From positions 1 to 32,171 of IMG/VR virus record IMGVR_UViG_3300009703_000066: DNA of 32,171 nt; one strand, written 5' to 3'. A model generated the notes under the pieces. It did no database searches, had not been told where the DNA came from, and saw nothing but the letters and a program-made list of their open reading frames with translations. Shown piece after piece: positions 144-30,861 of the stretch. Both the position numbers and the translations under genes were made by a program. Source of the stretch: a virus. Within the stretch, counting starts at the first letter, position 1, and every line of letters begins with the position of its first letter.

Positions 144-270
144 AAATCCATGGGTCCCCCTAGTCTACAAAGTGTTACGATGCCGCCCATAATCTCAAAG
201 CCGACCTTTTTTTCCCATCCCCATAAAAATTTTTTTCGCTATATAAAAACAAGCATAAAGTTTTATAGGT

Positions 271-441
271 ATGCAAAAAAATCCGCAGAAAAATTTTTCG
301 TCCATAGAGATTGATCAAGTCAGTGGCGAGCACTATGTGATTATTCCAGAATGGATATTGGATGAACAGGGATGGTATGAAGGAACCGAAGTTAATATTG
401 AGGTTGAAAATAATTGTATAGTGATTTCAGAGATTGAATAA
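271..441 (+). CDS. Small AbrB/MazE (SpoVT-AbrB)-like DNA-binding protein
   Basis: This is a 56-residue protein. The segment from about residue 22 has the swapped-hairpin AbrB pattern: YVIIPEWIL, then EQGWYEGTEVNIEVE, then a final strand CIVISEIE. The usual family signature is I-P-x-x-[IL], a GWxxGTxVxIxV core and a closing I-x-[IL] strand. Family members bind DNA as dimers and act as transition-state regulators or antitoxins. No toxin partner is visible next to it, so a free-standing regulator is more likely than an antitoxin. ATG 271 is the only sensible start, since an in-frame TAA lies at 256-258. There is no clear Shine-Dalgarno sequence; an AGG sits too close to the ATG. A sigma70-like promoter follows directly, so the protein may act on nearby promoters, but that is inference. 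Confidence 0.65.
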   Translation: MQKNPQKNFSSIEIDQVSGEHYVIIPEWILDEQGWYEGTEVNIEVENNCIVISEIE

Positions 442-456
442 GACACTTATACGATC

Positions 457-4875: not shown

Positions 4876-7800
4876 ATGGTACAAGCTGGTTTTGAATCTA
4901 GAATAAAGATTCATCAAATTATTGAAAATCAACTACCAGGTTTTTTACTATCAGAAAGTAGTAATACCTCGGAATTTTTAAAGCAATATTATAAATCGCA
5001 AGAATATCAAGGCGGTCCAGTTGATATTGCAGAAAATTTAGATCAATATCTAAGGTTTGATAATCTTACTCCAGATGTAATTGTAAATTCTACTACTTTA
5101 ACTTCTGATATAACGAATACTCTTCCTACAAGTGATGCTGATGATGGAACAGTATATGTTGAGTCTACAAGAGGATTTCCAAGTCAATACGGACTTTTAA
5201 AAATTGTTAATAGTGATAATGAAGATGACTTTGAAATTGTTACTTATACTGGAGTAACCGCCAATAGCTTTACTGGATGTATAGGTGGATTTAGTGGAAT
5301 TACTAATTATCACAATCATATAGATCAAGAGAGTTTAATATTTTCTAGTTCAACCAGAAAAACTCATAAATCTGGTTCAAAAGTAGAAAATCTTAGTGCA
5401 TTATTTTTAAAGGAATTTTATAGAAATTTAAAAGCAACATTTGTACCAGAATTAGAAAATATTGATTTTAATGATCAAATAAATGCCGGAAATTTCATAA
5501 GGCATGCAAGATCATTTTACCAATCAAAAGGAACCAATGAGTCATTCAGGATTTTATTTAATGTTTTATATGGTGTAAATCCAAAAATTATAAATTTAGA
5601 AGAATTTTTAATAAAATCTTCAAGTGCAAGTTATATTAGAAGAGAAGTTGTAGTTATTGATATAATTTCTTCAGGAGATCCTAAAAATTTATTTGGACAA
5701 ACTATTGTAAAAACAAATGATTCATCTACATTTGCATCAGTATCTTCTGTAGAAACTTTTGAAAGAAATAGTAAATTATTCTATAAGTTAGAATTATTTG
5801 TTGGATATAATGACTCAAATGCTGTTTCTGGTAATTTTAAAATTACTCCTAGCACAAGAGTATTGGAGAATGTTTCTCAAGGTTCTAATGCAATATCTGT
5901 AGATTCAACAATAGGATTTCCCGAAAGTGGAACTATTTTTGTTGGGTCTGGAACAAGTATTACTTATACTGGTAAAAGTATAAATCAATTTTATGGTTGT
6001 GATACAAGTAATATTTCAAATATAAGTTCTACTGATGTAGTAAGATCCAATGATACTTACTATGGGTATGAAAATGGCGATTCTTCTAAGAAAATAGAAT
6101 TTATTATCTTGGGATCACTATCTAAATTTAATCAATTGGATAGTGATTTTGATGCTGATGAAAATGATAAAATTTATATTAGTAATTTAGGTAGGGTAAT
6201 TGAGAATAATAATGCAACATATGAAGAGGTTCTTGCAAATTCATGGATTTATAATGTTTGCCCTAGTTTTTTAATTGAATTTGGAACATCTGATAATGAA
6301 AATACTATATCATCAACAATATTATTTGATAAACCAATAAAAGATTATTTTAGAAAAGGTGACGTAGTAGAAATTCTTAATAGAGGAACTAATACTGTTG
6401 TTCATACAACTTACATATCAAGATCAATAGTAGATAAAAATTCCATTGTAATAGATATTGCCGAAGGTTATGATTATGGGCAAGGTCTTAGTGATGATGA
6501 TCTTTCTGGAATTGAATTAAAAAGAGTTAGTGGATTTGAGTTAAGGAGAAAGATAAGAAAATCTGGAAGAACATCTAGTGCTGTAGAATTTGAATTTGGT
6601 GATGATAGTATTATTTCAGATGTTCAAAATACTTATTTGGAACATGGTGATAGTCTATATGTAGCTTCAAATTCTTTACCATCCGGTAATAGAGAAGTAA
6701 TAGATGCTAATTTTCAATCATCATATGATATTCAAGAAAATATAAAGATATGTAATACTAGCAAATTAAAAAAGGTAGGAAGTAATTATTCAATTATTGA
6801 AGTATCTGATGCTGATGGTGTTCCATTTATTACTGGAGATAAGGTTTTTTATATTGCTGGAACTGAAAATCCCATCGCAGGATTGAGTGCCAGATCTTAT
6901 TATGTTGAGAAAATTTCTTCCAATGAATTAAAATTATATGGATCAGTTTCTTTTATTGGAACTGATAAAAATTTAACATTTGATCAAGATAGTAGTGTTG
7001 TAACCGGAAATAAATTAGTTCTTTATTCTCATAGGGATTTGGTCATTGGACCTCAAAAAATACTAAAGAAATTCCCTATCACACAAACAATAAAAAATAG
7101 TAGTACACCATTAACCCAACCAGGAACAGTTGGAATGATGGTTAATGGTGTTGAGATATCAAACTACAAATCTCATGAAAGTGTTTATTATGGACCATTG
7201 AGTAGATTTGATGTTTTAAGTGGTGGATCTGACTATGATGTAATTAATTTGCCTGGTATAGAATTATCTTCTAGTAATGGAACCACTGCATTAGTTCAAC
7301 CAGTAGTAAGTGGATCAGTTAAAGATGTATTTGTAGATCCTCAGGAATTTAATATTGATAAAATTGTTTCAGTCAATATTACTGGTGGTAATGGTCAAGG
7401 AGCAGTTATTGAGCCAATTTTAATCAAAAAACAAAGAGATATATTTTTTGATGGTAGAGAATCTGGTCGTGGAGGTGGTATAAGCACTTCTACCAATACT
7501 ATCGTCTTTTTAAAAGATCATAATTTGGTTGATGGTGATAAAATATCATATAATAATTCTGGAAATAGTTCTTTGGGTATAGGAACTACTTCACCAAGTG
7601 TAAATGGTACTACTTTCTTTATTGATGTAATTAATTCAAAAGCTATAAGATTGCATGATAATATATCAGACGCTCTTTCAGGAATTAATACCGTTGGATT
7701 AACCACAACTAATACATTTGGAATACATAAGTTTTTAACAACAGATCCAAATAACACTGTTTTGGATATTAAGGTTGTTAATGAAGGTAGTGGATATACA

Positions 7801-10800
7801 AATAGAAAATTAATTGTAAAATCATCAGGAATATCTACTGTTAGTGACACTATTACTTTTGAGAATCATAATTTTAAAGATGGAGATCTAATTGAATATT
7901 TGTATGAGAGTAGTATAGTATCTGGATTATCTACTAATAATCAATATTATGTTTTAAATATTGATTCCGATTCGTTCAGGTTGTGTGATGCTGGTATTGG
8001 AGGAACAATTACTTCAAATTATGAAAAACAGAAGTATGTTAATCTTACTTCATCTGGATCCGGGTATCAATATTTTAAATATCCGGATATTAGTGCATCA
8101 CTTTCGTATACTTCCATTACTTCAGATAATGTTACTGATGTTGTTAAATTAACACCTGTTGTACGTGGTAGTATTGTAGATGCCTACTTATATGAATCTG
8201 GAACTGGATATGGATCTACAATTCCAAATCATCAAAAAAATCCTTTAGTTTCTATAAAAAATGGTTCTAGTGCTAGGTTTAGACCTGTTATTGTAAACGG
8301 AACAATTCAAGATGTTTCTATTTTGTATGGTGGAAAGGATTACAATTCTTCTCCAGATTTAGAAGTTGTTGATCCAACTAATTTGGGTAATGGTGCAAGA
8401 TTAAGACCAGTTATAACTAATGGATCGATTACTGATGTTATAGTAGTTAATACTGGTATTGGATATTCTACAGCATCTAGTATTAAAGTAACATCGTCGG
8501 GGATAGGGGCATTATTTGATACTTCTGTAAGAGAGTTAACTATTAATAATAATAGAAAATATAAAAATTCTCTAGATGTTATTCATGAAACAGAATTATT
8601 GGTAGAATCTGAAAATAAAATTAAGTATACAGTCTCTGGATACTCTACTGCATTTTTAAATAATGGTGAAGGTATTGATAGTCATTCTCCTATAATTGGT
8701 TGGGCATATGATGGAAATCCAATATTTGGCCCATACGGATATTCCGATCCTAATGACATTGAATCGGATATTAAATTAATTGTTCCAGGATACACATTAA
8801 GTGAAACTAATATTATTGATAGACCGTCTGGATTTGATTATGGATTTTTTGTTGATGATTATGTTTATGATAATTCTGTAGGTGATTTAGATGAGCATAA
8901 TGGTAGATTTACTAAAGTTAGAGGTTTATTTGAAAATGGAGTGTATGGATATTTTGCAACTATTGAAGATTCTACTAAGAGTAACGTAGCAAAATACCCA
9001 TATTTTATTGGAAATAGATATAGATCAGATTTTATAAAAGAAAATAATTTATTGGATCAATCATTTGATTTTAATAATTCCAATTTAATTAGAAATACAT
9101 CAAAATATAATATAAAAGATAAAAATGTAGATTATGATTTTGTTTTTGAAAGTGCAAAATTATCAGATCAATTATTAACGGTAGAGTCTGTAACTTCAGG
9201 ATCTGTTGAAAATGTAGAGATTTTAAGTTCTGGTAGTAGATATAAAATTAATGATAATGTAAAATTTAAAAAGTCGGGTGGTGATCAAGGAGATGGATTA
9301 TCATTAAATGTTTCTGAATTAGAAGGAAAATCTGTTGTTGATGTAGAGTCTAATACATTGACATATGAAAATTCTATATTCGAATGGAATAATTCTAAAG
9401 AAGTTGAAGTTACTATTCAACCATCTCATATATTGTCAGATTCTGATAAAGTTACAATTTCTGGATTTTCTACAGAATCTGAGTTGAATGGTAATTTTGA
9501 AATAGGTGTAAAATCTAAGACGACAGTTTTACTTGAGAGTATTCCTTCAACAGCTTCTATTGGATCTACTGATATATTTGTTGAGAGTATTCCATCTACA
9601 CTTAATATAGGTAGTTTTATAAAAATAGGAACAGAGTCTTTAGAAATTTTTAATTTTAATAGAGAATCTAATTTTATTAGAGTTAATAGAGGTTCTACTG
9701 GTGTATCACACACAACAGGAACTGTAGTTGAATTTACTCCAGATTCCTTTACAATTGATGTAAATACTCCTCATTTCAATTCTAATGTCAATAATAAGGT
9801 ATATTTTAATCCAAATGAAGTCATAGGATTTGGAACAGTTGTTGGATTTAGTTCTTCAGTTACTGTAAGTTTTGGTGCGACAACAAAAGAAAGAGAAATT
9901 CTCACTCAATCAATTTTTATTGAAAATCATCCATTTACAGATAATCAAAAAATAACAATTAGTATACCTCATACTAATTCGGAAAGAATTTCAATATCCA
10001 CTTCACCGGCAGGTTCTACAACTGATTTACCATCAACTGCTGCAGGATTATCTACGAATGTATTTGTAAGTAATAAGGGTAGAGACATAATAGGAATAAA
10101 AACCACACTTAATTCTGATGAAGTATTCTTCATTGGTATTGGTGTGACAGATGGAAATGATTATAAGATAGAATCAAATTATACTCAAGTTCTTGGAAAA
10201 GTTGAGAGGGTATTAACTACTGTTTCTGTTTCAACTTCTCATGGAATGTTGAAGAATGATGTTATTTCTTTATCGCTTCAACCAAATCTTAATGTTGGTA
10301 TTGGAACTTCAACATCAGTTAAATTACGTAGATCTGATTATTTTGGTGTAGTTGCAAATAGAGAAACATTTGTTGCTGGTGGAATTTCTGTGGAAACTAA
10401 TTCCATAACTATTTCTTCTCATGGATTTAAGACAGGAGATAAAGTTGGATATTCTAAACAAACTTCATCTGAAGATTCACCTGGTGGATTAATTGAGTTT
10501 AATTCTTATTATATTTACAGAATAAATGATGATACTATAAAATTATGTGATACTTATATTGATTCTCAAAAAAATCCACCTACTGTAGTTGAAATATCTA
10601 GTGTTGGTGGATCAACTGACCATTATTTGGATCTTATAAATCCACAAATAGATATAGTAAGTGGAAATAATTTAGTATTTGATCTTTCAGATTCAACACT
10701 TAGTGGATACGAATTTAAAATATTTAATGATAATGAATTTAAAAATGAATTTGTATCTACAGGATCTACTAATAATTTTTCAATAATATCATCCCCAAAT

Positions 10801-13800
10801 GTAGGAAGTGCAGGGGCTGCATTAACTATAACTCATAGTGAAAATATACCAAATGTTCTTTTCTATAATTTAGAGAAATCTGGTTATATAAGCACTTCTG
10901 ATATAGATGTTAAAAATAATAATAAAATTTCATATATTAATAGTGTATATTCTAATGAATATACAGTTACTGGTACAGGAACAACTACTTTTGACATTGT
11001 ATTGAGAACCATTCCTGAAAGAAATTCTTATTTACAATCTGAATGTGATGTTCTAAAGTACACTACAACTTCAAAAACTGCAGAAGGAGCAATTGCAGGA
11101 TTAAAAATTATGTCCAAGGGTAGTGGATATAAAAAATTACCTGTTTTTGACGCTGTTACATCAACAAATGGAAAAGATGCTAACTTAATTGCAAAATCAA
11201 GTCTCATTGGAAATGTAAATCAAACTAGAATTGTTAATTCTGGATTTAATTATCCATCAGATAAAACATTAAGACCTTCTGCAAGCAGTACACAAGCATT
11301 ATCATTGATTAATGCTAATACTATTGGTATAGTTTCTGTTACAAATGGAGGATCTGATTATATTAATGAACCTTCATTGATTATTGTTGATTCTACTACC
11401 AATAAAAAAATAGATAGTGGGTTATTGAAGGCAAATTTACTCAATTCAACCATCCAAAATGTTGATATAGTATCCGAACCAACAGGACTTCCTGAAAAAA
11501 ATATAAATCTTTTTACAACAAATAATACTAATGGTGTTACTATAAGGGAAGTTCTTTCCAGTAATACTGGTATTTTTACTTGTGTTTTGACCACACCGGC
11601 TGAATTATTTGGTGCAGATCCATTTACTGCTGGAGATTTAGTTTTTATTGAAGGTATTCAAAAATATAGTTCCGGTGGTGATGGTTTTAATACAGAAGAC
11701 TTGCAATATCAATTCTTAAAAGTTCAAAGTTATGATGGTCCTCCATCAAATAATTCCGTAAATCCAGCAAAACTTACTATTGATGTAAATGAATTAACAT
11801 CTAATACGGGAATTGCAATTACTGATCAACAATCAAAACCAATTGTAATTAAAAAAACAGATTATCCATCATTTACTATTCAGACAGAATATAAATCATT
11901 CATTGTTGATGAGCAGTTAATTGTAAATGGAGTACTTAGAGATCTATTTTTAACTTCAGAAGTAGATAAAAATAAAATTAAAGTAGGTGGAACATATGAA
12001 GTATCGAAAGGTGATGTTTTAATTGGAAGTTCTTCTGGATCAAAGGCAACTGTGTTTTCCAGTAATAACAATTCTGGTGAATTTGAAGTTAATTACAATA
12101 GCCCCAAGAACATAGGATGGTCGGATGATACTGGAAAATTAAGTAATAATACACAATACTTACCTGATAATGATTATTATCAAAATTTATCGTATAGTGT
12201 TAAGAGTCCGATAGAATATCAAAAATCTGTAAGTGTTGTAAATGATTTGGTTCATACTATTGGGACAAAGAATTTTTCAGATACTGAGATTATTGGTGTT
12301 GCCAAAACAGTTGGAGTGTCAACTGATAGTGCAGTAGATTCTACAACAACATATGTTGATATAATTGACGATAGAAGAGTTGATACTTTAATGGATATTG
12401 GATTAGCAATAGATTCTAATATTTCAAATAATCAATCAAATTTTATAGAGTTTTCTAACCTTAGATTATCTCAATATACTGAGATTAGTGGTGATTTAGT
12501 TTTTACTATTGATAATATTAATAATCAATTCTCAAATTTAAAAGACAGGGAGAATTTAAAACAATATTTAGATTTATTTGCAGTAAGATCTTTAAATTAT
12601 TATAGTAATTTACTAATAAAAATAACTGATAATAATAATAATCAAGTTCAATTATCTGATTTAGTTCTTTTTAGTAATCAAAATGGAAATTATTTATTAG
12701 AAAGATCTGAATTATATAATAATTTTGAAAAACCTTATGGAAAATATTCTTTAGAATATTCTGACGTTGATAGCTCAAAAGTTTATTTTAGATTTACTCC
12801 AGATAATGAATATGCTTTTAATTATGACTATAATGTAGAAATTTTAGATCAATCTTTTATAGGAAATTCTGTCGGAGTTAATACTTATTCTATTGGAGAG
12901 TATATTGATTTAATTAGTTCAACTCAAAATATAGAAACAACAGAAACTAATATAGTTTCCTTGAATAAAAATTCTATAGAATCATTATATGCTGAAATTC
13001 AAATTACAGACTTAAGTACAGGAAAAATTAATTTCTCTGAAATATACTTAATTCATGATGGAACAAATACTTATATCTCAGAGACTAATACAGATTCTTC
13101 AAATATATTATTCAATTCCGATTCTATTGTATCTTTCGCATCAACTATATCATCAAATGATTTTATATTGAAGTGTTCTAATAATACTTCTAATAATGTT
13201 AAAGTAAAATCCAGAATTGTTGGATTTGGAGCAACAGATTCTAATAGTGGTACTGGATCTTATACTTTCCTTGCAACTAATCAACCAGAATCTTCTGCAA
13301 AAACTATTAAGTATCAAACAAATTATGTTAGTGGTACTGGAGATCAAACAATTTTAACTTTAGATTCTTCTGATTTTGCAGCATCTAAAATTATCGTTCA
13401 AGTATCCACAGGAACAGAAAAATCTTTACATCAATTATTATTGGTTCAAATTAATAATAATGCATATGTTCATCAGGATAAATTCAATTCTATAGATCAG
13501 AATGAGGAATATAGTTCTATTGGTGGAATAGGAACTTTTGGTACTGATTATAATTCATCTAATTATAGATTAAAATTCTATCCAGATTCTGATTTCTCTA
13601 GTGATACTATTGAAGTTACTTTATTGAGTCAAAATTTTTATAAGGATATAGATGTTAATATTCCAAACAATTTGGAATATGGAAATGTAACTGAGAAACT
13701 TTCCAGTAAAACTTATTATGGTATTAATAGTGATTCATTAAATAAAAATGATTTTGAGTTAACTACAGAATTTACACCAATTTTTGCAAAGAAATTTGAT

Positions 13801-16800
13801 CCATCGGATACAAATGTCGTATCCAATAGTGGAATATTTACAATAGAAAATCATTTCTTTAGGACTGGTGAGAAACTTCTTTATAGAGAAGGAACAACAT
13901 TTGGTGGATCTGCAACAAAAATGGAGTCTGCATCATCAACAGATTTTCCAGAAGAAGTTTTTGTTCATGTCTTGAACAAATCACAGTTTAAGTTAATGGC
14001 AACTAAAGCAAATGCTATTGCCGGAACTTCTGCGCTTACAGTTCATTCTCGTGGTACTGGTAATTCTCATGAACTTGAAATGGAATTGAAGAATGAAAAA
14101 ACTTTAATAACAGTAGATAATATTATACAATCTCCGATAGCATATTGTCCGATTTCTTATACTCTTTCAAATGGTATAAACAGTAATGATACTGTATTTG
14201 CATTATCTGGAATTACTTCAATAAGAGAAAATGATGTATTGAGATTGGATAATAAAGAATATGTTAAAGTTATTAATTCTGGATTAGGCACTTTATCTTC
14301 TGGTCCTATAACTGGAACTGGTACTAATAAATTGGTTCAAGTTGAAAGAGGATTCTTAGGAACTAATGCTGTTTCACATACATCATCTAAAGCAGCAGAT
14401 ATTTATAGAGGATCTTATAATATTGAAGGCAATAAAATATTCTTTACCGAACCACCTAGAGGTGAGGCAAATGTTGAGAGGAATGAAAGTAATTTAGAAG
14501 TACCAACATCAGATTTTGCTGGTAGAGTTTACTTTAAGAGTAATTATGATGATAGTAAAGTGTATGATGATATATCACATCAATTCACTGGAATAGGAAA
14601 AACATTTACTGTTACAGTTGGAGGAGCAAATACTTCTGGTATTGGTACTTTGGGTCGTAGTGGTTTATTATTCATAAATGGTTTTTTCCAAGCACCATCA
14701 ACTCCCAATAATACAAATAATAATTTTGATATATTAGAAACAGTAGCATCTGGAGGAGACCCTGGAATAACCACAGTTGTCTTTACTGGTATTAATGAAC
14801 CTATAAATGATGATATTAATGTAAATGAGGTACCAAGAGGAGGTATTGTAGTATCATATGGATTTACAGGTGGTCTTGGTTATGCACCTCTTGTAGGAGC
14901 ATCTGTAACTGCTATATTGGGTGCTGGTGGATCTATTACTTCATTTGGATATGAAGATTTAGGATCTGGATATTATGGTTCAGTTGGTGTTGCAGTAACA
15001 GATTTAATTTATGATCATAAATTTGTAAGTTGTGGTGTAAATTCAATTACTGATAATACTGGCAGTGAATATACTGCAACTGATGCAATTTATAATTCAT
15101 TAACAGGAGACTTAATATTAACAATTCCTAGACATGGATTGGATTTAAGTAATACTGTTGGTATTGATAATGGAGGAATTGTATTTACTTGCTCAAAGGA
15201 TGGACATGGAAGTGAACATGCTTATCCAAGAGCAATTTCTAAGACTCAATTGAGAAGAGGTAATAGTGGTGTTGGTGATCCAATATCCGGAATTTTAACT
15301 GCAATTACTGCAAAAACAAATAATACAATTACTATTAATGTTCATCCTGGGGGAGGGGCTGGTACTGGTGGTCAAGTGACGGCGGCAGTTGGAGCTGGAG
15401 GAACATTGACATTTAGTCTTGTTGGTCACGGGACAGATTATGTAAATCCGGAAATTTATGTGAATTCTCCATCGTATGCAAATCTTGGCATAAGTGGAAT
15501 TTCTAGATTAGATGGTTCTGCAGGTAGTGGACAAGGATTAAAAATATCTGTTGATGTTGGTTCAAGTTCAACAACTGGAATTGGATCCACATACTTTGAA
15601 GTAAAGGATATTAGTATTCATAATAATGGTTATGAATTTAGAAAAGGTGATAAAGTAAGTGTTACTGGATTAGTTACTGATCAAAGATTAGGAAGTCCTA
15701 TCGAACCTCTTGTTGTAGAAATATTAGAAACTTACACTGATTCATTCTCTATGTGGGAATTTGGTGATTTGGATTATGCAGATTCTATAGAACCTTTCCA
15801 AGATGGATTTAGAAAAAACTTTATTCTTAGATATGATAATGAGATAATTAGTTTTGAAGGTAGAAATAATGAAAGTATTAATTTTGAAAATTTATTATTG
15901 ATTTTTGTAAATGGAATTTTACAAACACCAGGAAAGGCATATACTTTTAATGGTGGAACATCATTTACTTTTGCAGATGCCCCTAAAATTGAAGATAAAG
16001 TCGATATTTATTTTTATAGAGGAATTACTTCAGAAGATAGTTCTGCAATAATTCCAATATATAAAACTATTGAGGAAGGGGATCAGATTCAAGGTATTGC
16101 AACTCATGATGATGAAAAAGATCAAAGTTTTAGAACAGTGTATGCTATTGAGTCTTCAGATACTTTGCAGACAAATTTATATTCTGGAGATGGTATATCA
16201 GAAAATGAAAAATCTATTAATCTAATCAAGCAAAAATCCGATTCAAAAATTGGTGGTCAGTTTAGATACAAAACTAGAGAATCATTGAAATCTTTGATTT
16301 ATCCTACTGCAAATATAATTAAAGATTTGAATACATCATCTACAACTTTGTATGTTGATAATTCTGAATTATTTAAAAACTATGTTTCTGCAGGAGAAGT
16401 TTATCAAATGCAGATAGTTTCTCAAGAACCAGTATCTTCTGCATGTACAATTACATCTTCTGTTGGTGCTGGTGGAACCGTTGTTTTATCCTTAGTTAGT
16501 GGTGGATCTGGATATAGTAGTGCTCCTACAATAAAAATTGCTGCTCCACCAATAATAGGTGTTGGTATAGGGACAACAGCACAAGCTACTTTGACTATAA
16601 ATTCAGGATCTGTAGACCAAATTCAAATTACTAATCCTGGATTTGGATATACTATTGCACCAAATATTATTGTTTCTGTTCCAAGTGCAATTAAAGAAAC
16701 TGTAACTGGAATTACTAGTACAAATACAAAAGGATTTACTGGTATTATTACGGGTATTGATACAAAGACTGATAGTGGTCAATTATACATTGAGTTTGAT

Positions 16801-17235
16801 TTGTATTCTAAAGATATTAATTTTGCTAGTAGTGATCTTCAAGTTGGTGATGCAATAGTTGTTTTTGATACAACAGTTGGTTCTGGAATAACATCAATTG
16901 ATAATAGTAGTTCAAGTATAGTTGGAGTAGGAACAACTTTTATTGATAATATCTACTATATTTCCGAAAGTCCTTCAGGAACAACTTCAACTGGTATTGT
17001 TACATGTAAGATTCAAAATGGTACTAGTACCACTGGATTGGCAATATCTGGAAATGTTGGAAGATTCTCTTGGGGTCGTATTGAAAACGTTACTAGAAGT
17101 TCCTCACCTGCTTCTTTTACTGTTAGTGGAAAGACAATTGATGTTGGATTCTCAACTTTCCCAGTTGGGCAAAGAAGAGGATCTGGTGATGGTGCCAAGA
17201 AGATTGGTATAAGGGACAGTGGATCTTTAGATTAA
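4876..17235 (+). CDS. Giant modular virion protein, baseplate wedge (gp7 position)
   Basis: One uninterrupted 4119-residue reading frame of about 450 kDa. The N-terminal 260 residues look like the baseplate-attachment part, with SEFLKQYYKSQEYQGG (about 35-50), DIAENLDQYL and SKGTNESFRILFNVLYG (about 216-232). The rest is a mosaic of beta-rich modules: 'GSGY' units (near 970, 1062, 1108, 1152, 1193, 2081, 2158, 3364, 3876, 3920), 'HGF-GD' units (near 646, 880, 996, 1847, 2992) and 'GFP-TG-RG' units (near 90, 340, 1550, 3100). A YHYH-like domain covers about 1265-1370. The C-terminus ends with FSWGRIENVTR and a QRRGSGDG tail. By position between gp6 and gp8 it should replace T4 gp7 (1032 residues), but I see no direct gp7 similarity. 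It probably forms an extended wedge arm or side fibre. There is no signal peptide or transmembrane segment. Confidence 0.85.
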   Translation: MVQAGFESRIKIHQIIENQLPGFLLSESSNTSEFLKQYYKSQEYQGGPVDIAENLDQYLRFDNLTPDVIVNSTTLTSDITNTLPTSDADDGTVYVESTRGFPSQYGLLKIVNSDNEDDFEIVTYTGVTANSFTGCIGGFSGITNYHNHIDQESLIFSSSTRKTHKSGSKVENLSALFLKEFYRNLKATFVPELENIDFNDQINAGNFIRHARSFYQSKGTNESFRILFNVLYGVNPKIINLEEFLIKSSSASYIRREVVVIDIISSGDPKNLFGQTIVKTNDSSTFASVSSVETFERNSKLFYKLELFVGYNDSNAVSGNFKITPSTRVLENVSQGSNAISVDSTIGFPESGTIFVGSGTSITYTGKSINQFYGCDTSNISNISSTDVVRSNDTYYGYENGDSSKKIEFIILGSLSKFNQLDSDFDADENDKIYISNLGRVIENNNATYEEVLANSWIYNVCPSFLIEFGTSDNENTISSTILFDKPIKDYFRKGDVVEILNRGTNTVVHTTYISRSIVDKNSIVIDIAEGYDYGQGLSDDDLSGIELKRVSGFELRRKIRKSGRTSSAVEFEFGDDSIISDVQNTYLEHGDSLYVASNSLPSGNREVIDANFQSSYDIQENIKICNTSKLKKVGSNYSIIEVSDADGVPFITGDKVFYIAGTENPIAGLSARSYYVEKISSNELKLYGSVSFIGTDKNLTFDQDSSVVTGNKLVLYSHRDLVIGPQKILKKFPITQTIKNSSTPLTQPGTVGMMVNGVEISNYKSHESVYYGPLSRFDVLSGGSDYDVINLPGIELSSSNGTTALVQPVVSGSVKDVFVDPQEFNIDKIVSVNITGGNGQGAVIEPILIKKQRDIFFDGRESGRGGGISTSTNTIVFLKDHNLVDGDKISYNNSGNSSLGIGTTSPSVNGTTFFIDVINSKAIRLHDNISDALSGINTVGLTTTNTFGIHKFLTTDPNNTVLDIKVVNEGSGYTNRKLIVKSSGISTVSDTITFENHNFKDGDLIEYLYESSIVSGLSTNNQYYVLNIDSDSFRLCDAGIGGTITSNYEKQKYVNLTSSGSGYQYFKYPDISASLSYTSITSDNVTDVVKLTPVVRGSIVDAYLYESGTGYGSTIPNHQKNPLVSIKNGSSARFRPVIVNGTIQDVSILYGGKDYNSSPDLEVVDPTNLGNGARLRPVITNGSITDVIVVNTGIGYSTASSIKVTSSGIGALFDTSVRELTINNNRKYKNSLDVIHETELLVESENKIKYTVSGYSTAFLNNGEGIDSHSPIIGWAYDGNPIFGPYGYSDPNDIESDIKLIVPGYTLSETNIIDRPSGFDYGFFVDDYVYDNSVGDLDEHNGRFTKVRGLFENGVYGYFATIEDSTKSNVAKYPYFIGNRYRSDFIKENNLLDQSFDFNNSNLIRNTSKYNIKDKNVDYDFVFESAKLSDQLLTVESVTSGSVENVEILSSGSRYKINDNVKFKKSGGDQGDGLSLNVSELEGKSVVDVESNTLTYENSIFEWNNSKEVEVTIQPSHILSDSDKVTISGFSTESELNGNFEIGVKSKTTVLLESIPSTASIGSTDIFVESIPSTLNIGSFIKIGTESLEIFNFNRESNFIRVNRGSTGVSHTTGTVVEFTPDSFTIDVNTPHFNSNVNNKVYFNPNEVIGFGTVVGFSSSVTVSFGATTKEREILTQSIFIENHPFTDNQKITISIPHTNSERISISTSPAGSTTDLPSTAAGLSTNVFVSNKGRDIIGIKTTLNSDEVFFIGIGVTDGNDYKIESNYTQVLGKVERVLTTVSVSTSHGMLKNDVISLSLQPNLNVGIGTSTSVKLRRSDYFGVVANRETFVAGGISVETNSITISSHGFKTGDKVGYSKQTSSEDSPGGLIEFNSYYIYRINDDTIKLCDTYIDSQKNPPTVVEISSVGGSTDHYLDLINPQIDIVSGNNLVFDLSDSTLSGYEFKIFNDNEFKNEFVSTGSTNNFSIISSPNVGSAGAALTITHSENIPNVLFYNLEKSGYISTSDIDVKNNNKISYINSVYSNEYTVTGTGTTTFDIVLRTIPERNSYLQSECDVLKYTTTSKTAEGAIAGLKIMSKGSGYKKLPVFDAVTSTNGKDANLIAKSSLIGNVNQTRIVNSGFNYPSDKTLRPSASSTQALSLINANTIGIVSVTNGGSDYINEPSLIIVDSTTNKKIDSGLLKANLLNSTIQNVDIVSEPTGLPEKNINLFTTNNTNGVTIREVLSSNTGIFTCVLTTPAELFGADPFTAGDLVFIEGIQKYSSGGDGFNTEDLQYQFLKVQSYDGPPSNNSVNPAKLTIDVNELTSNTGIAITDQQSKPIVIKKTDYPSFTIQTEYKSFIVDEQLIVNGVLRDLFLTSEVDKNKIKVGGTYEVSKGDVLIGSSSGSKATVFSSNNNSGEFEVNYNSPKNIGWSDDTGKLSNNTQYLPDNDYYQNLSYSVKSPIEYQKSVSVVNDLVHTIGTKNFSDTEIIGVAKTVGVSTDSAVDSTTTYVDIIDDRRVDTLMDIGLAIDSNISNNQSNFIEFSNLRLSQYTEISGDLVFTIDNINNQFSNLKDRENLKQYLDLFAVRSLNYYSNLLIKITDNNNNQVQLSDLVLFSNQNGNYLLERSELYNNFEKPYGKYSLEYSDVDSSKVYFRFTPDNEYAFNYDYNVEILDQSFIGNSVGVNTYSIGEYIDLISSTQNIETTETNIVSLNKNSIESLYAEIQITDLSTGKINFSEIYLIHDGTNTYISETNTDSSNILFNSDSIVSFASTISSNDFILKCSNNTSNNVKVKSRIVGFGATDSNSGTGSYTFLATNQPESSAKTIKYQTNYVSGTGDQTILTLDSSDFAASKIIVQVSTGTEKSLHQLLLVQINNNAYVHQDKFNSIDQNEEYSSIGGIGTFGTDYNSSNYRLKFYPDSDFSSDTIEVTLLSQNFYKDIDVNIPNNLEYGNVTEKLSSKTYYGINSDSLNKNDFELTTEFTPIFAKKFDPSDTNVVSNSGIFTIENHFFRTGEKLLYREGTTFGGSATKMESASSTDFPEEVFVHVLNKSQFKLMATKANAIAGTSALTVHSRGTGNSHELEMELKNEKTLITVDNIIQSPIAYCPISYTLSNGINSNDTVFALSGITSIRENDVLRLDNKEYVKVINSGLGTLSSGPITGTGTNKLVQVERGFLGTNAVSHTSSKAADIYRGSYNIEGNKIFFTEPPRGEANVERNESNLEVPTSDFAGRVYFKSNYDDSKVYDDISHQFTGIGKTFTVTVGGANTSGIGTLGRSGLLFINGFFQAPSTPNNTNNNFDILETVASGGDPGITTVVFTGINEPINDDINVNEVPRGGIVVSYGFTGGLGYAPLVGASVTAILGAGGSITSFGYEDLGSGYYGSVGVAVTDLIYDHKFVSCGVNSITDNTGSEYTATDAIYNSLTGDLILTIPRHGLDLSNTVGIDNGGIVFTCSKDGHGSEHAYPRAISKTQLRRGNSGVGDPISGILTAITAKTNNTITINVHPGGGAGTGGQVTAAVGAGGTLTFSLVGHGTDYVNPEIYVNSPSYANLGISGISRLDGSAGSGQGLKISVDVGSSSTTGIGSTYFEVKDISIHNNGYEFRKGDKVSVTGLVTDQRLGSPIEPLVVEILETYTDSFSMWEFGDLDYADSIEPFQDGFRKNFILRYDNEIISFEGRNNESINFENLLLIFVNGILQTPGKAYTFNGGTSFTFADAPKIEDKVDIYFYRGITSEDSSAIIPIYKTIEEGDQIQGIATHDDEKDQSFRTVYAIESSDTLQTNLYSGDGISENEKSINLIKQKSDSKIGGQFRYKTRESLKSLIYPTANIIKDLNTSSTTLYVDNSELFKNYVSAGEVYQMQIVSQEPVSSACTITSSVGAGGTVVLSLVSGGSGYSSAPTIKIAAPPIIGVGIGTTAQATLTINSGSVDQIQITNPGFGYTIAPNIIVSVPSAIKETVTGITSTNTKGFTGIITGIDTKTDSGQLYIEFDLYSKDINFASSDLQVGDAIVVFDTTVGSGITSIDNSSSSIVGVGTTFIDNIYYISESPSGTTSTGIVTCKIQNGTSTTGLAISGNVGRFSWGRIENVTRSSSPASFTVSGKTIDVGFSTFPVGQRRGSGDGAKKIGIRDSGSLD
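8668..8985 (+). other. YHYH-like domain inside the giant virion protein
   Basis: Residues about 1265-1370 hold HSPIIGWAYDGNPIFGPYGY (W1276, D1279, G1285-P1286) and DEHNGRF (1339-1345), which match the conserved core of the YHYH domain. The name-giving YHYH position reads Y1357-G1358-Y1359-F1360, so both histidines are lost. The domain occurs in secreted and phage virion proteins; its function is not settled. It has no ORF boundary of its own. Confidence 0.7.
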
Positions 17236-17264: not shown

Positions 17265-18857
17265 ATGTCAGCGTTAGTTACTGATAATTTTAGAATACAG
17301 AATGCATCAAATTTTATAGATGCTGTATTGAATGGTACTGATAATTATTATGCTTTTCTGGGATTAGCAAACCCAAATACACCAGCATCTTCTTTTGGTA
17401 GAGATACTGATGTTAAGTGGAATAATATTACAACTACACCATCTCCTGTAGATAATTTAGCATACTTATCTCATTATAGAGATACTTCTTTATTTGGTAA
17501 AAAGATAACAGGTGATTCTATCAGAAGAGTTGTGAAAAAGCATCAATGGACTGCTAATACTCGTTATGATATGTATAGGCATGATTATAATATTGAAAGT
17601 AATAGATCTCCAGTTTCAAATAAAGGCAGATTGTATGATTCAAATTACTATGTTGTAAATAGTGATTTTAAAGTATACATTTGTCTTTATAATGGATCTT
17701 CAGGAGCACCTGGATCCGATTCTTCTAAAGGTGTTGAGTCTCAAGACGAACCAACATTTACCGATTTAGAACCATCTGCAGCTGGAACGAATGATAAGTA
17801 TATTTGGAAATATCTATTTACCATTGCCCCTAGTGATATTGTAAAATTTGATTCAACAGAGTATATAGTTTTACCTAATAATTGGGATACTTCTACCGAT
17901 TCTCAAATTCAAACCGTTAGGGAAGCAGGAGATTCTGTAGTCAATAAGAATCAGATTAAAAGAGTGTATATTGAAAGTGGTGGTTTAGGATATGAAAAGG
18001 GAACATATTCGGTAGATATCCTTGGTGATGGTACAGGTGCTAAGGTAACTGTTAGTGTTAATAGTTCTGGAACTATTGATGATGTTATAGTTACTTCTGG
18101 CGGATCTGGATATACATATGGAATTGTGGATTTGGGATCAGTACAAGCAGAAAATAGAGATAATAATAATAGAGCAAAATTAATTCCCATTATTCCACCA
18201 TCAAGGGGACATGGATTTAATATTTACAGTGAATTGGGTGGTGATAAAGTTTTAGTTTATAGTAGATTTGATAATTCTACGAAAGATTTTCCAACAGAAA
18301 CAAAATTTAGTCAAGTTGGAATATTAAAAAATCCAATGGTATCAGGATCTTATTCAATAAAATTTACTAATACTAGTTTTTCTTCACTTTATTCTATAAA
18401 GTTGACTTCTATTATTTCTGAAGATTCCATTACTGTAGGTGATATTATTACACAAACAAGATCTGATGGCGATGTTGCCAAGGGTTATGTTGCATCTTTT
18501 GATAAAACTACTAAAGTTTTGAAATATTTTATCGATAGAACATTATTTTTTGATTCTGCGAATAAGTATGATCAAACAGATTATACTAATGTAAGTACTG
18601 AATCAAAGCATGTTGCTTTTGATGGTAGTGCCAGTATTAGTATAGGCAGTGCTACTGCTTCAGTAGATACTAGTTTTGGAGCATCGGAACCAACTAATAC
18701 AGTTGATGGTATTAATCTTGGTGTTAGTTTCAATAGTGGACTTGCAAATCCTGAGATAAATAGAAAGACAGGTGATATTATATACATTAATAATAGACCA
18801 GTAGTTACAAGAGACTCTAGGCAAAAAGAAGACGTTAAAATTATTCTGGAATTCTAA
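17265..18857 (+). CDS. gp8: Baseplate wedge protein gp8, enlarged
   Basis: A 530-residue gp8-type wedge protein. The N-terminus has the cyanophage gp8 pattern: NFRIQNASNFIDAVLNG (about 8-24), NYYAFLG, then a WTANTRYDMYRHDYN stretch (near 102-116). A central YIWKYLFTIAPSD (near 184-196) and a C-terminal KTGDIIYINNRPVVTR also fit the family. T4 gp8 has 334 residues; here there is extra sequence, including a GSGY module pair at about 235-290 (SGGLGYEKG and TSGGSGYTYG around a DGTGAKVTV strand). gp8 forms a dimer that joins gp6, gp7 and gp10 in each wedge. It has its own late promoter. The next gene starts seven bases downstream. Confidence 0.9.
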   Translation: MSALVTDNFRIQNASNFIDAVLNGTDNYYAFLGLANPNTPASSFGRDTDVKWNNITTTPSPVDNLAYLSHYRDTSLFGKKITGDSIRRVVKKHQWTANTRYDMYRHDYNIESNRSPVSNKGRLYDSNYYVVNSDFKVYICLYNGSSGAPGSDSSKGVESQDEPTFTDLEPSAAGTNDKYIWKYLFTIAPSDIVKFDSTEYIVLPNNWDTSTDSQIQTVREAGDSVVNKNQIKRVYIESGGLGYEKGTYSVDILGDGTGAKVTVSVNSSGTIDDVIVTSGGSGYTYGIVDLGSVQAENRDNNNRAKLIPIIPPSRGHGFNIYSELGGDKVLVYSRFDNSTKDFPTETKFSQVGILKNPMVSGSYSIKFTNTSFSSLYSIKLTSIISEDSITVGDIITQTRSDGDVAKGYVASFDKTTKVLKYFIDRTLFFDSANKYDQTDYTNVSTESKHVAFDGSASISIGSATASVDTSFGASEPTNTVDGINLGVSFNSGLANPEINRKTGDIIYINNRPVVTRDSRQKEDVKIILEF

Positions 18858-27782: not shown

Positions 27783-28622
27783 ATGGCAAAAGCAAATACA
27801 AGGCAAGGACTTGTTGATTATTGTTTAAGACAGTTAGGTGCTCCTGTATTAGAGATTAATGTTGCTGATGATCAAATAGATGATTTAGTTGATGATGCAC
27901 TTCAATACTTCCATGAAAGGCACTTTGATGGTGTTGAAAGGATGTACTTGAAATATCAAATAACTCAAGATGATATTGATAGAGGAAAAGGTCCTGGGGC
28001 AACAGGAGTAACTGGTATAAGCACAACAACTGTAAGTCATAGTGTTGGTGTAACAACTCAATTTTCCTATGAGGAAAATAATAATTATATTCAGGTACCA
28101 GATTCTGTAGTTGGTATAGAAAAAATATTTAAGTTTGATACTAGCTCAATTTCAGGCGGAATGTTTAGTATTAAATATCAATTAATGTTGAATGATATTT
28201 ATTTTTTTAATTCTGTTGAGTTACTTCAATATTCTATGGTTAAAACGTATCTTGAAGATATTGATCATTTATTAACACCTGATAGGCAAATTAGATTTAA
28301 TAAAAGACAAAATAGATTGTATTTAGATATTGATTGGGAGGCACAAACAGCAGGAGAATATATTATTTTAGAGTGTTATAGAATTTTAGATCCCGATACT
28401 TTTACAAGTGTATATAATGATAGTTTTTTGAAGAAGTATTTAACTTCATTGATAAAGAGACAATGGGGTCAAAATCTATTAAAGTTCCAAGGAGTTAAAC
28501 TTCCTGGCGGAATTGAATTAAATGGTAGGCAGTTATATGAAGACGGTAATAGAGAACTTGGGGAAATAATACAAAAGATGTCTATGGAATATGAATTACC
28601 TCCTCTTGATCTTATTGGATAA
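27783..28622 (+). CDS. gp13: Neck protein gp13
   Basis: A 279-residue neck protein (T4 gp13 has 309). The N-terminus TRQGLVDYCLRQLGAPVLEI (about 6-25) followed by DDQIDDLVDDALQYFHERHF is the hallmark of the family. The C-terminal half has LKKYLTSLIKRQWGQNLLKF, then GGIELNGRQLYEDG, and ends YELPPLDLIG. gp13 joins gp14 in the ring that closes the filled head and receives the tail. Residues about 62-88 form a Thr/Gly/Ser-rich loop. gp14 follows two bases after the stop, matching the expected stoichiometric pair. Confidence 0.95.
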   Translation: MAKANTRQGLVDYCLRQLGAPVLEINVADDQIDDLVDDALQYFHERHFDGVERMYLKYQITQDDIDRGKGPGATGVTGISTTTVSHSVGVTTQFSYEENNNYIQVPDSVVGIEKIFKFDTSSISGGMFSIKYQLMLNDIYFFNSVELLQYSMVKTYLEDIDHLLTPDRQIRFNKRQNRLYLDIDWEAQTAGEYIILECYRILDPDTFTSVYNDSFLKKYLTSLIKRQWGQNLLKFQGVKLPGGIELNGRQLYEDGNRELGEIIQKMSMEYELPPLDLIG

Positions 28623-28624
28623 TC

Positions 28625-30064
28625 ATGGCACTAAATCCCTTTTTTCTTCAAGGATCTTCTAATGAACAATTTCTTGTTCAAGATTTAATAAATGAGCAGT
28701 TGAAAATATATGGTATAGAAATTTATTATCTACCAAGAAAAATATTTCAAACTGATGATATTATTAAAGAAGTGCAATCTTCAAAATTTGATGATTCTTT
28801 TCTAATAGAAGCATATCTCAATAACTATGAGGGATATTCTCCAAGTAGCGATATAATGACGAAATTTGGGTTACAATTGAAAAATGAAGTTAGTTTAACA
28901 ATATCCAGAGAAAGATTTGAAGAATTTATTACTCCATTTATGGAGGCAATTTCAACAGGACTTAGAGATAATATTCAAACAGATTTTACTTTTCAGGATT
29001 TAGTCAGTAGACCAAGAGAAGGAGATTTAATATATTTCCCATTAGGAGAAAGATTATTTGAAATTAAAAGAGTAGAGTTTGAAAAACCATTTTATCAGTT
29101 AGGAAAAAATTACATTTACGAATTGAGTTGTGAACTCTATGAATATGAAAATGAACTTGTTGAGACTTCAATTGAAGAAGTTGATAATACTGTAGAGGAT
29201 GAAGGATATAATACTGCAATAACTCTTGTTGGTAATGTTGTAGAAGCATCTGCTATTGCAAGAGTTGGATCTGCCGGAATGGTTGGACAAATAATCCTCA
29301 ATAATGATGGATCTGGATATACATCGGCACCAACAGTTACAATATCGAATCCTTCTGGAGTTGGTGGAAAAGTAGCAACTGCGGTTGCTATTACCACAAG
29401 TATTTTAAATGTTACTTCTATTGATACAATAAGAATAATTAATCCAGGATCTGGATATGATTTAAATAATCCTCCAACAATTACAATAAGTGGTGGTGGT
29501 GGAGTAGGAGCAGCTGCAACTGCTGTTATCGTTGATCATGGTATTGAAGAGATTGAATTTTCCCAGAATGGTGGAGGTTATTTTGGAGATACATCTGTAA
29601 TTATTTCAGGTCCAGGATCTGGAACGACTGCAGTTGTAAGTCCGGTTATTTCTAGTGGAGTCATACAATCTGTTCAATTTATTAATGCTGGTGCCGGATA
29701 TACTGGTATCGGTACTACAACGGTATCAATTACAGGAATATCTTCGGTTGGAGTTGGCACATTTGTTTATAATGAAATAATTACTGGTGAGAGTAGTGGA
29801 GTTACTGCAAGGGTTAAGGATTATAGGAAGGGTGTCTCTACAGTACCCAATGTTCCTGCAGAGACTATTCTAAAAGTAGCACTAAATACTGGTAAATTTG
29901 CTAGTGGTGAAGTTATAGTTGGTTCAAGTTCATCTGCTAGATACTATGTCAAATCTCATAATTTAGAGAGTTATGATAATGAGTTTGATTCTAATGAAGA
30001 TATAGAATTAGAAGCAGATTTAATATTAGATTTTACAGAGTCTAATCCATTTGGAGATTACTAA
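28625..30064 (+). CDS. gp14: Neck protein gp14 with a large internal GSGY-module insertion
   Basis: A 479-residue protein; T4 gp14 has 256. The N-terminal 200 residues (NPFFLQGSSNEQFLVQDLIN, then IYYLPRK and EKPFYQLGKNYIYELSCELY) and the C-terminal 33 (SYDNEFDSNEDIELEADLI, then FTESNPFGDY) look like ordinary cyanophage gp14. Between them, from about residue 203 to 446, lies a beta-module block. It has GSGYTSAPTVTIS, a second GSGYDLNNPPTITIS, GAGYTGIGTTTVSI and two TSGA-like units (ITGESSGVTARV and IVGSSSSARYYV). Removing the block leaves about 235 residues, near the T4 size, so it reads as an insertion into a loop. The neck role is with gp13 at the head-tail joint. It overlaps gp15 by one base. 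Confidence 0.9.
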   Translation: MALNPFFLQGSSNEQFLVQDLINEQLKIYGIEIYYLPRKIFQTDDIIKEVQSSKFDDSFLIEAYLNNYEGYSPSSDIMTKFGLQLKNEVSLTISRERFEEFITPFMEAISTGLRDNIQTDFTFQDLVSRPREGDLIYFPLGERLFEIKRVEFEKPFYQLGKNYIYELSCELYEYENELVETSIEEVDNTVEDEGYNTAITLVGNVVEASAIARVGSAGMVGQIILNNDGSGYTSAPTVTISNPSGVGGKVATAVAITTSILNVTSIDTIRIINPGSGYDLNNPPTITISGGGGVGAAATAVIVDHGIEEIEFSQNGGGYFGDTSVIISGPGSGTTAVVSPVISSGVIQSVQFINAGAGYTGIGTTTVSITGISSVGVGTFVYNEIITGESSGVTARVKDYRKGVSTVPNVPAETILKVALNTGKFASGEVIVGSSSSARYYVKSHNLESYDNEFDSNEDIELEADLILDFTESNPFGDY

Positions 30065-30861
30065 TGTTAGGAACGTATTTTTATCACGAAATTATAAGAA
30101 AAACTATAATCTCGTTTGGCACATTATTTAATAATATTCATATTAAACATGAAAATCAATTAAATAATACTATTGATGATACTAAAGTAAGTCTTTCTTA
30201 TGGTCCTCAGCAAAAGTTTCTGGCAAAAATTGTTGAACAAGCACAATTAGCAAAATCAACGGCAATATCTTTACCAAGGATGTCTTTTGAAATGACATCA
30301 ATATCCTATGATCCAACAAGAAAGGCAGGTGTTACTCAAACATTTAAAGCTTCTGATGGGAGTAACATAAAAAAAGTTTTTATGCCAGTTCCATATAATA
30401 TTGGATTTGAGCTTAATATTTTTACAAAGTTAAATGATGATGCTCTGCAAATAGTTGAGCAAATTATACCATTCTTTCAACCATCATTTAATTTAACTGT
30501 TGATTTAGTAAAATCAATAGGAGAAAAGAGAGATATGCCTGTAATTTTGGATAATATATCTTTTCAGGATGATTATGAAGGAGATTTTTCTACTCGTAGA
30601 GCATTAATTTATACTTTAAGATTCACTGCCAAAACTTATTTGTTTGGTCCTATATCAGATAGTAGTGATGGATTAATTAAGAAAGTACAAGTTGATATGC
30701 ATACATCTACTGACACTAAGTCAGCAAAGAGAGAAATGAGATATATAGCAACTCCAAATCCAATTGATGCCGGACCACAAGATGACTTTGGATTTGATGA
30801 AAATTGGGGGTTCTTTACTGATTCTGGAGATTATAGTCCAACTAGAAAGGAAGATATTTGA
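30064..30861 (+). CDS. gp15: Tail sheath stabiliser and completion protein gp15
   Basis: A 265-residue protein (T4 gp15 has 272). Recognisable parts are MLGTYFYHEIIRKTIISFGT at the start, LPRMSFEMTSISYDPTRK (about 75-92), FMPVPYNIGFELNIFTK (about 116-132) and LRFTAKTYLFGPI near 190. gp15 forms the hexameric ring on top of the contractile tail, holding the last tube and sheath ring and docking to the neck. The start codon overlaps the gp14 stop by one base (TAATG), so the two are translationally coupled. gp16 follows nine bases downstream. Confidence 0.94.
   Translation: MLGTYFYHEIIRKTIISFGTLFNNIHIKHENQLNNTIDDTKVSLSYGPQQKFLAKIVEQAQLAKSTAISLPRMSFEMTSISYDPTRKAGVTQTFKASDGSNIKKVFMPVPYNIGFELNIFTKLNDDALQIVEQIIPFFQPSFNLTVDLVKSIGEKRDMPVILDNISFQDDYEGDFSTRRALIYTLRFTAKTYLFGPISDSSDGLIKKVQVDMHTSTDTKSAKREMRYIATPNPIDAGPQDDFGFDENWGFFTDSGDYSPTRKEDI

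Follow-up and report, generated by a model that had tools for sequence, protein, structure and literature searches.

A variable beta-repeat insertion in the C-terminal arm of the gp14 head-closure protein of T4-like cyanophages

Results

Identity of gp14 and its ring core

The window analysed here is a virus record of 32,171 bases, taken at its full length. In the phage collection, it is most closely related to Kyanoviridae and other T4-like cyanophages of this sort. One of its genes encodes a T4-type gp14 head-closure (stopper) protein (Table 1). The product matches the Pfam family PF11649 (T4_neck-protein; E 3.5e-29, 102.4 bits, the curated cut-off being 25) and PHROG 460, annotated "head closure Hc2" (E 1.3e-115). 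A PDB sequence search recovers solved T4 gp14 with an E value of 3.5e-24, and the identity in fold searches is approximately 29-38%. The predicted model matches T4 gp14 in Foldseek (9mkb_0, E 2.3e-9), and its residues 1-175 superpose on the solved T4 core with a VIA Z score of about 11; against the T4 gp14 chains of 9lu4-9lu7, the core model gives Z 10.9-11.5 and an rmsd of 3.8-5.5 over 124-135 aligned residues. The gene order gp13-gp14-gp15-gp16 is also found in the window (PHROG 211, PF16724 and PHROG 445 terminase small subunit).

The PDB sequence search returned no virion structure of a T4-like cyanophage gp14, T4 gp14 being the only solved relative. In the T4 protein, the core spans residues 55-177; the C-terminal residues 178-256 show disorder in the isolated neck, and in the virion they bind gp15 (PMC12270204). 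The window protein resembles T4 gp14 in the fold of the ring core, in gene order, in a C-terminal region directed toward gp15 and in an (N/S)PF(G/D) motif near the C-terminus. In contrast, T4 gp14 has 256 residues, its arm carries neither a barrel nor GxGY repeats, and the whiskers of T4 are formed by fibritin on domain III of gp13. An origin of the long form by frameshift or gene fusion was rejected, as the 479-residue frame is unbroken, full-length orthologues occur in the same gene order in the cultured phages P-SSM2, S-SKS1 and S-T4, and the architecture recurs in over 200 of the gp14s sampled.

Table 1 Coordinates of the gp13-gp15 region, of the parts of gp14 and of a related baseplate stretch in the window
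Feature	Coordinates	Strand	gp14 residues or length	Remarks
gp13, ring partner of gp14	27783..28622	+		PHROG 211, E 2.6e-46
gp14 ORF	28625-30064	+	479 aa	between gp13 and gp15
gp14 ring core	28625..29185	+	1-187	N-terminal helix; beta-barrel with stopper loop
First barrel strands, C-terminal arm	29201..29266	+	~193-214	model strands 195-202 and 209-214
"A" array, four GxGY beta repeats	29267..29737	+	~215-371	profile matches and AlphaFold2
"B" repeats, two, "GxFxxGExIxGxxSGA"	29738..29983	+	~372-453	remainder of the small barrel
Conserved C-terminal tail	29984..30061	+	454-479	ends ...ILDFTESNPFGDY
gp15, tail completion protein	30064..30861	+		PF16724, E 2.8e-84
gp14-insert-related stretch of the 4119-aa baseplate-wedge ORF	16432..17133	+		32% identical to gp14 residues 207-445, E 4.1e-6

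A repeat array nested in a small barrel

A sequence-only reading of this DNA had proposed that gp14 carries an insertion at residues 203-446, made of two kinds of beta module of baseplate type. These residues correspond to positions 29231-29962, and an insertion relative to T4 gp14 is indeed located there, in the C-terminal arm. Its extent requires revision: the ends are better placed at approximately 193 and 453, and the insert consists of two nested parts, a small beta-barrel (residues ~193-214 and 372-453) and a GxGY array (residues 215-371) in a loop of that barrel. With profiles built from gp14 homologues, both repeat types, GxGY (A) and SGA (B), are recovered far from chance (whole-protein E values of 2.7e-32 and 7.8e-31, respectively). 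The A repeats, each of ~40 residues, lie at 215-256, 263-303, 302-339 and 342-380 (49.7, 36.8, 17.1 and 15.9 bits, respectively), and the B repeats ("G.F..GE.I.G..SGA") lie at 372-407 and 412-453. Because the B segments together with strands 193-214 match one compact solved barrel, the A array is read as an insertion into a barrel loop; in the 292-residue gp14s of S-RIM44 and S-CAM1, the B segments run uninterrupted. The same form corrects the earlier estimate that gp14 would be about 235 residues long without the insert, since this closest repeat-free cyanophage form has 292 residues and retains the barrel. Beyond the barrel, NPFG is found inside the final 30 residues in 325 of 328 gp14 relatives. 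A Pfam search of residues 203-446 gave no domain, including any carbohydrate-binding domain.

The A array is confidently predicted by AlphaFold2 to fold independently as a beta domain: it has a pLDDT of about 95 inside full gp14, and it reaches a mean pLDDT of 95.1 and a pTM of 0.89 when folded alone. Residues 370-450 of the full model have a pLDDT of about 70-88. The full model has a pTM of 0.49 and a linker near 189-193 falls below 50 pLDDT, so the packing of core, barrel and array relative to one another is uncertain. In fold comparisons, the barrel model (range 195..450, discontinuous) aligns over 79 residues with residues 767-846 of 9f4a_A0 (Z 8.8, rmsd 2.5) and more weakly with YgfZ (1nrk, Z 6.8) and with aIF2-gamma and EF-Tu (Z about 5.7). 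The B barrel of the model is likely to share its arrangement with phage baseplate, EF-Tu domain III and YgfZ barrels, which is not proof of kinship. For the A-array model, no Foldseek match in the PDB was better than E 1.4, and a second look had as its top match an Ig-like domain of filamin (Z 3.1, rmsd 3.2, 67 residues), which is weak. The modelled array may represent a fold that lacks a near relative among solved structures, although this does not follow from a match that is weak or absent.

Distribution of the insert among relatives

A set of 415 gp14s was drawn from environmental as well as cultured phages; its class counts reflect the collecting queries and not population frequencies. In this set, protein length ranges from 219 to 1109 residues and the number of A repeats is 0, 2, 4, 6, 8 or about 10. 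Three classes recur: a barrel without A repeats (BB; 76 of 415, 292-296 residues), a barrel interrupted by two repeats (B-AA-B; 85 of 415, 372-393 residues) and four repeats ahead of the B segments (AAAA-BB; 208 of 415, 456-491 residues). The arrays reach ten A repeats in gp14s of 753-1109 residues. The number normally shifts by two; odd counts (3, 7 and 9) may reflect missed weak repeats, and the excess of even numbers is one among related sequences. A folded beta domain that is present in some relatives and absent from others, the outcome that the sequence-only reading had named as support, is what AlphaFold2 and the 415 sequences give.

Among cultured phages, S-RIM44 and S-CAM1 carry the barrel without A repeats, S-RIM2 and ACG-2014j (374-390 residues) carry two repeats, P-SSM2, S-SKS1 and S-T4 carry four, as in the window, S-SSM7 carries six and S-CAM9 carries eight. 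Profile search detected neither the A repeats nor the barrel in gp14 of T4, KVP40 or Acidovorax phage ACP17. When 13 cyanophage records were picked from the match list at regular intervals, the barrel was found in 12 and A repeats in 10; two had the barrel only, and S-B68 had neither. The idea of an insert peculiar to the window phage is not supported, and these records place it as the usual state in T4-like cyanophages. The gp14s of the Prochlorococcus phage P-SSM2 (470 residues) and the Synechococcus phage S-SKS1 (491 residues), annotated only as neck protein or head closure Hc2, share with the window protein the core, four A repeats, two B repeats and the ILDFTESNPFG tail; they are 48-51% identical to it over the full length, with no essential difference. 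By such comparison, gp14 of the window is a known protein in a modified form that is common in marine T4-like phages.

In addition to its six A repeats, the S-SSM7 gp14 (L086:1501-3786) possibly contains a lectin-like domain inside the head-closure protein: residues 323-448 match Laminin_G_3 (concanavalin A-like) with an E value of 7.6e-6 and 26.6 bits, just below the cut-off of 27.6. No other lectin-like match was obtained in the family, and the window protein does not share this one. A lectin domain suspected by eye in the gp14s of 1022-1109 residues (motif DDAWHYVYI...LYLDG) is not claimed, as no Pfam match and no meaningful PDB sequence match was obtained. In an S-B68-like gp14 (L427:1501-2856), this C-terminal arm is longer by ~100 residues of unrelated sequence.

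Gain, loss and exchange of the array

Across 64 relatives, the mean pairwise identity is 0.67 for the ring core and 0.68 for the last 20 residues, compared with 0.39-0.57 for the A and B regions. Closely related pairs differ by the array itself. The gp14s of L414-L416 (372 residues, B-AA-B) and L337 (292 residues, BB) are 90-91% identical over 184 core residues and 87-93% identical in their last 45 residues, with upstream DNA 83-84% identical, and they differ by ~80 additional residues in the barrel, giving a filled and an empty pair. Similarly, L207 and L126 have cores 92% identical, and L207 has ~85 additional residues that make up two A repeats. In a tree of 80 cores, well-supported branches force at least three changes for the B-AA-B class and four or more for arrays with at least six repeats; branch support in this tree is only approximate, and three long branches of the outgroup cannot be relied on. 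On these sequences, the array has been gained or lost repeatedly in cyanophage gp14.

The insertion site also varies. In the S-RIM2 type, the A repeats lie between "...GEEIVG" and "RAEVKSW", and in the window type they precede "GTFVYNEIITG". The two sites fall in adjacent loops of one barrel, which means that the array either entered twice or moved. Finally, L414 and S-RIM44 have gp14 cores that are 93% identical, against 52-63% identity in their barrels. Relative to S-RIM2, the L414 core is 43%, the insert 65% and the following barrel segment 78% identical, with 55-78% identity across barrel and array. A core like that of S-RIM44 combined with a barrel and array closer to those of S-RIM2 points to a cassette exchange, by which barrel and array would have been swapped together into the L414 gene.

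Kinship with baseplate and tail proteins

The description of the modules as baseplate-type is borne out. Residues 203-446 alone match PHROGs annotated as baseplate wedge, tail fiber and virion structural protein with E values down to 2.9e-15, and a paralogous stretch occurs in the window's own 4119-residue baseplate-wedge ORF (Table 1), where the A profile matches residues 3872-3946. A recent copy from this gene is not favoured, as the insert is 47% identical to that of the AG-345-L05 gp14 orthologue, compared with 32% to the baseplate-wedge ORF. In genome-wide profile searches, each of nine cyanophage genomes had A repeats in several structural ORFs, belonging to baseplate and tail genes, and none were found in the T4 or KVP40 genome.

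The 4119-residue ORF (window 4876-17235, PHROG 2885) also has a YHYH domain at residues 1253-1365. The baseplate-wedge protein encoded at 17265-18857 (PHROG 438) matches PHROG 460 at residues 211-286 and seems, from this match, to share the GxGY repeats. Beside the baseplate cluster, an ORF of the ferredoxin family (1572-2270; PHROG 3704, E 2.2e-111) is likely to be an auxiliary metabolic gene.

Fibritin and its binding domain

Domain III of T4 gp13 (residues 190-239) binds fibritin (PMC12270204). In an alignment with T4 and KVP40 gp13, the gp13 of the window lacks ~40 residues that match this domain; they are missing from all ten cyanophage gp13s compared, including that of the window, and present in T4 and KVP40, which encode wac. 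The window itself is a fragment; in nine complete cyanophage genomes, neither PF07921 nor T4 wac gave a match, with T4 and KVP40 as positives. In agreement, wac is listed as missing from cyanomyoviruses by Clokie et al. 2010, who also mention an unpublished cyanomyovirus from St. Kilda that bears distinct whiskers and in which a wac gene was expected (PMC2984593). To judge by its name alone, this isolate may be S-SKS1 (L092, North Atlantic), a phage with four gp14 repeats in which fibritin was undetected. A literature search on S-SKS1 and St Kilda returned nothing naming the whiskered isolate.

Discussion

The presence of a variable, folded insertion on the gp14 arm is well supported, and its exposure at the virion surface is likely. 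Six inserts of 244 residues would occupy ~195,000 cubic angstroms, compared with ~91,000 cubic angstroms in a lumen of 44 x 60 angstroms that must also pass DNA, a size in which the 44 angstroms come from the T4 gp13 tunnel at its narrow end (PMC12270204) and the 60-angstrom length is assumed; the six inserts of the longest relatives would require ~700,000 cubic angstroms. Because the inserts exceed the volume of the DNA channel, and because the array is flanked by the conserved ring core and by a C-terminal tail whose T4 counterpart docks on gp15, we infer that the array points outward. The string of beta repeats most likely projects at the neck as a decoration, and the C-terminal arm of cyanophage gp14 has probably been elaborated into a surface appendage there, with a possible adhesive or spacer role.

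In the proposed arrangement, the arm that reaches down to gp15, as in T4, would carry a small barrel between the ring core and the C-terminal anchor peptide, and paired GxGY repeats of ~40 residues, four in the window phage, would grow from one loop of that barrel. Six short beta arms, one from each subunit of the gp14 hexamer, would then surround the head-tail joint, and these could project outward as weak, avidity-driven adhesive or spacer decorations where T4 has its fibritin whiskers.

A neck appendage that acts as a weak adhesive or spacer is the best-supported reading, and it may be compared with the neck passage structure (NPS) proteins of lactococcal 936 phages, which likewise combine a conserved core or N-terminus with a module that varies (PMC6669499). 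In NPS, this module is a carbohydrate-binding domain that binds the host weakly (PMC6669499), and the gp14 appendage may work comparably without belonging to the NPS family. NPS is a separate collar protein of unrelated sequence, with trimeric coiled coils and a proposed attachment to the portal, whereas the gp14 module lies inside the head-closure protein itself. A counter-example is phage A-1(L), in which a neck-fibre carbohydrate-binding module failed to bind the host (PMC10966104).

The foremost alternative, which we regard as rather unlikely, is that the barrel and repeats are packed among gp14, gp15 and the first sheath ring, where they would stiffen the head-tail joint as an internal brace and would not be turned outward for host contact. 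The arm does sit between two anchors at the gp14-gp15 interface, and T4 residues 178-256 bind gp15 in the virion; the near-universal barrel of the sampled cyanophages (12 of 13) may be structural, and S-CAM9 and S-SSM7, which have long gp14s, also carry ~90 additional gp15 residues. Tight packing is, however, hard to reconcile with a repeat number that runs from 0 to ~10, even among close relatives with a near-constant core, and the gp13 and gp15 that flank the four-repeat gp14 of the window are of ordinary size.

Fibritin is largely a coiled coil and is poorly conserved, so that its absence by homology is not final. This weakens a second alternative, in which the six gp14 arms would do the job of T4 fibritin, to hold or sense the tail fibres, in phages that lost wac. 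The lack of a detectable fibritin gene in the nine complete genomes, a cyanophage gp13 without the fibritin-binding domain the published absence of wac and the whiskered St. Kilda isolate (PMC2984593) would fit such a substitution. Phages with the BB form only, and S-B68, have neither gp14 repeats nor fibritin, so any such job is not always done by the array, and we consider the substitution unlikely. Also doubtful, if slightly less so, is a broader proposal in which cyanophages replaced whiskers by exchangeable gp14 arms, with length and tip tuned to host or environment through cassette swaps; if true, the tip would consist of GxGY pairs and possibly, in some relatives, of a lectin-like domain. 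Between fibritin (gpwac) and the gp14 array, the likeness is that of a projection at the neck of a T4-like myovirus, outward in the gp14 case by the placement argued above; fibritin is a separate trimeric coiled-coil protein on gp13, not homologous and undetected in cyanophage genomes.

Least probable is that the repeats are functionless in gp14 and spread there by recombination between low-complexity beta repeats, as their occurrence in several structural ORFs per cyanophage genome and an insert identity of 0.48, below the 0.67 of the core, might suggest, because the four-repeat form is kept in over 200 of the sequences sampled, although many of these are closely related, the GxGY and GGGG positions are well conserved, and change in steps of two repeats fits a structural unit.

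Head-closure proteins are regarded as conserved plumbing. In the cyanophage gp14s, widespread ocean phages would gain, lose, double and trade folded modules around a ring core that stays nearly constant, and this modularity accounts for the 219-1109 residue range of gp14 in T4-like phages. The array is also a candidate neck decoration for phages without a fibritin gene. A search of open-access papers found no description of a variable gp14 repeat insert.

Neighbouring proteins of the neck show insertions of their own. The gp13 of S-B68 (L089:359-1483), a phage in whose gp14 no A repeats were detected, has GxGY repeats with two weak A-profile matches (genome-wide match E 1.3e-4). Insertions of ~90-100 residues of other modules are present in the gp13 of S-CAM9 (L085:371-1492) and in the gp15 of S-CAM9 (L085:3482-4561) and S-SSM7 (L086:3814-4896), which suggests that gp13, gp14 and gp15 all tolerate inserts in cyanophages.
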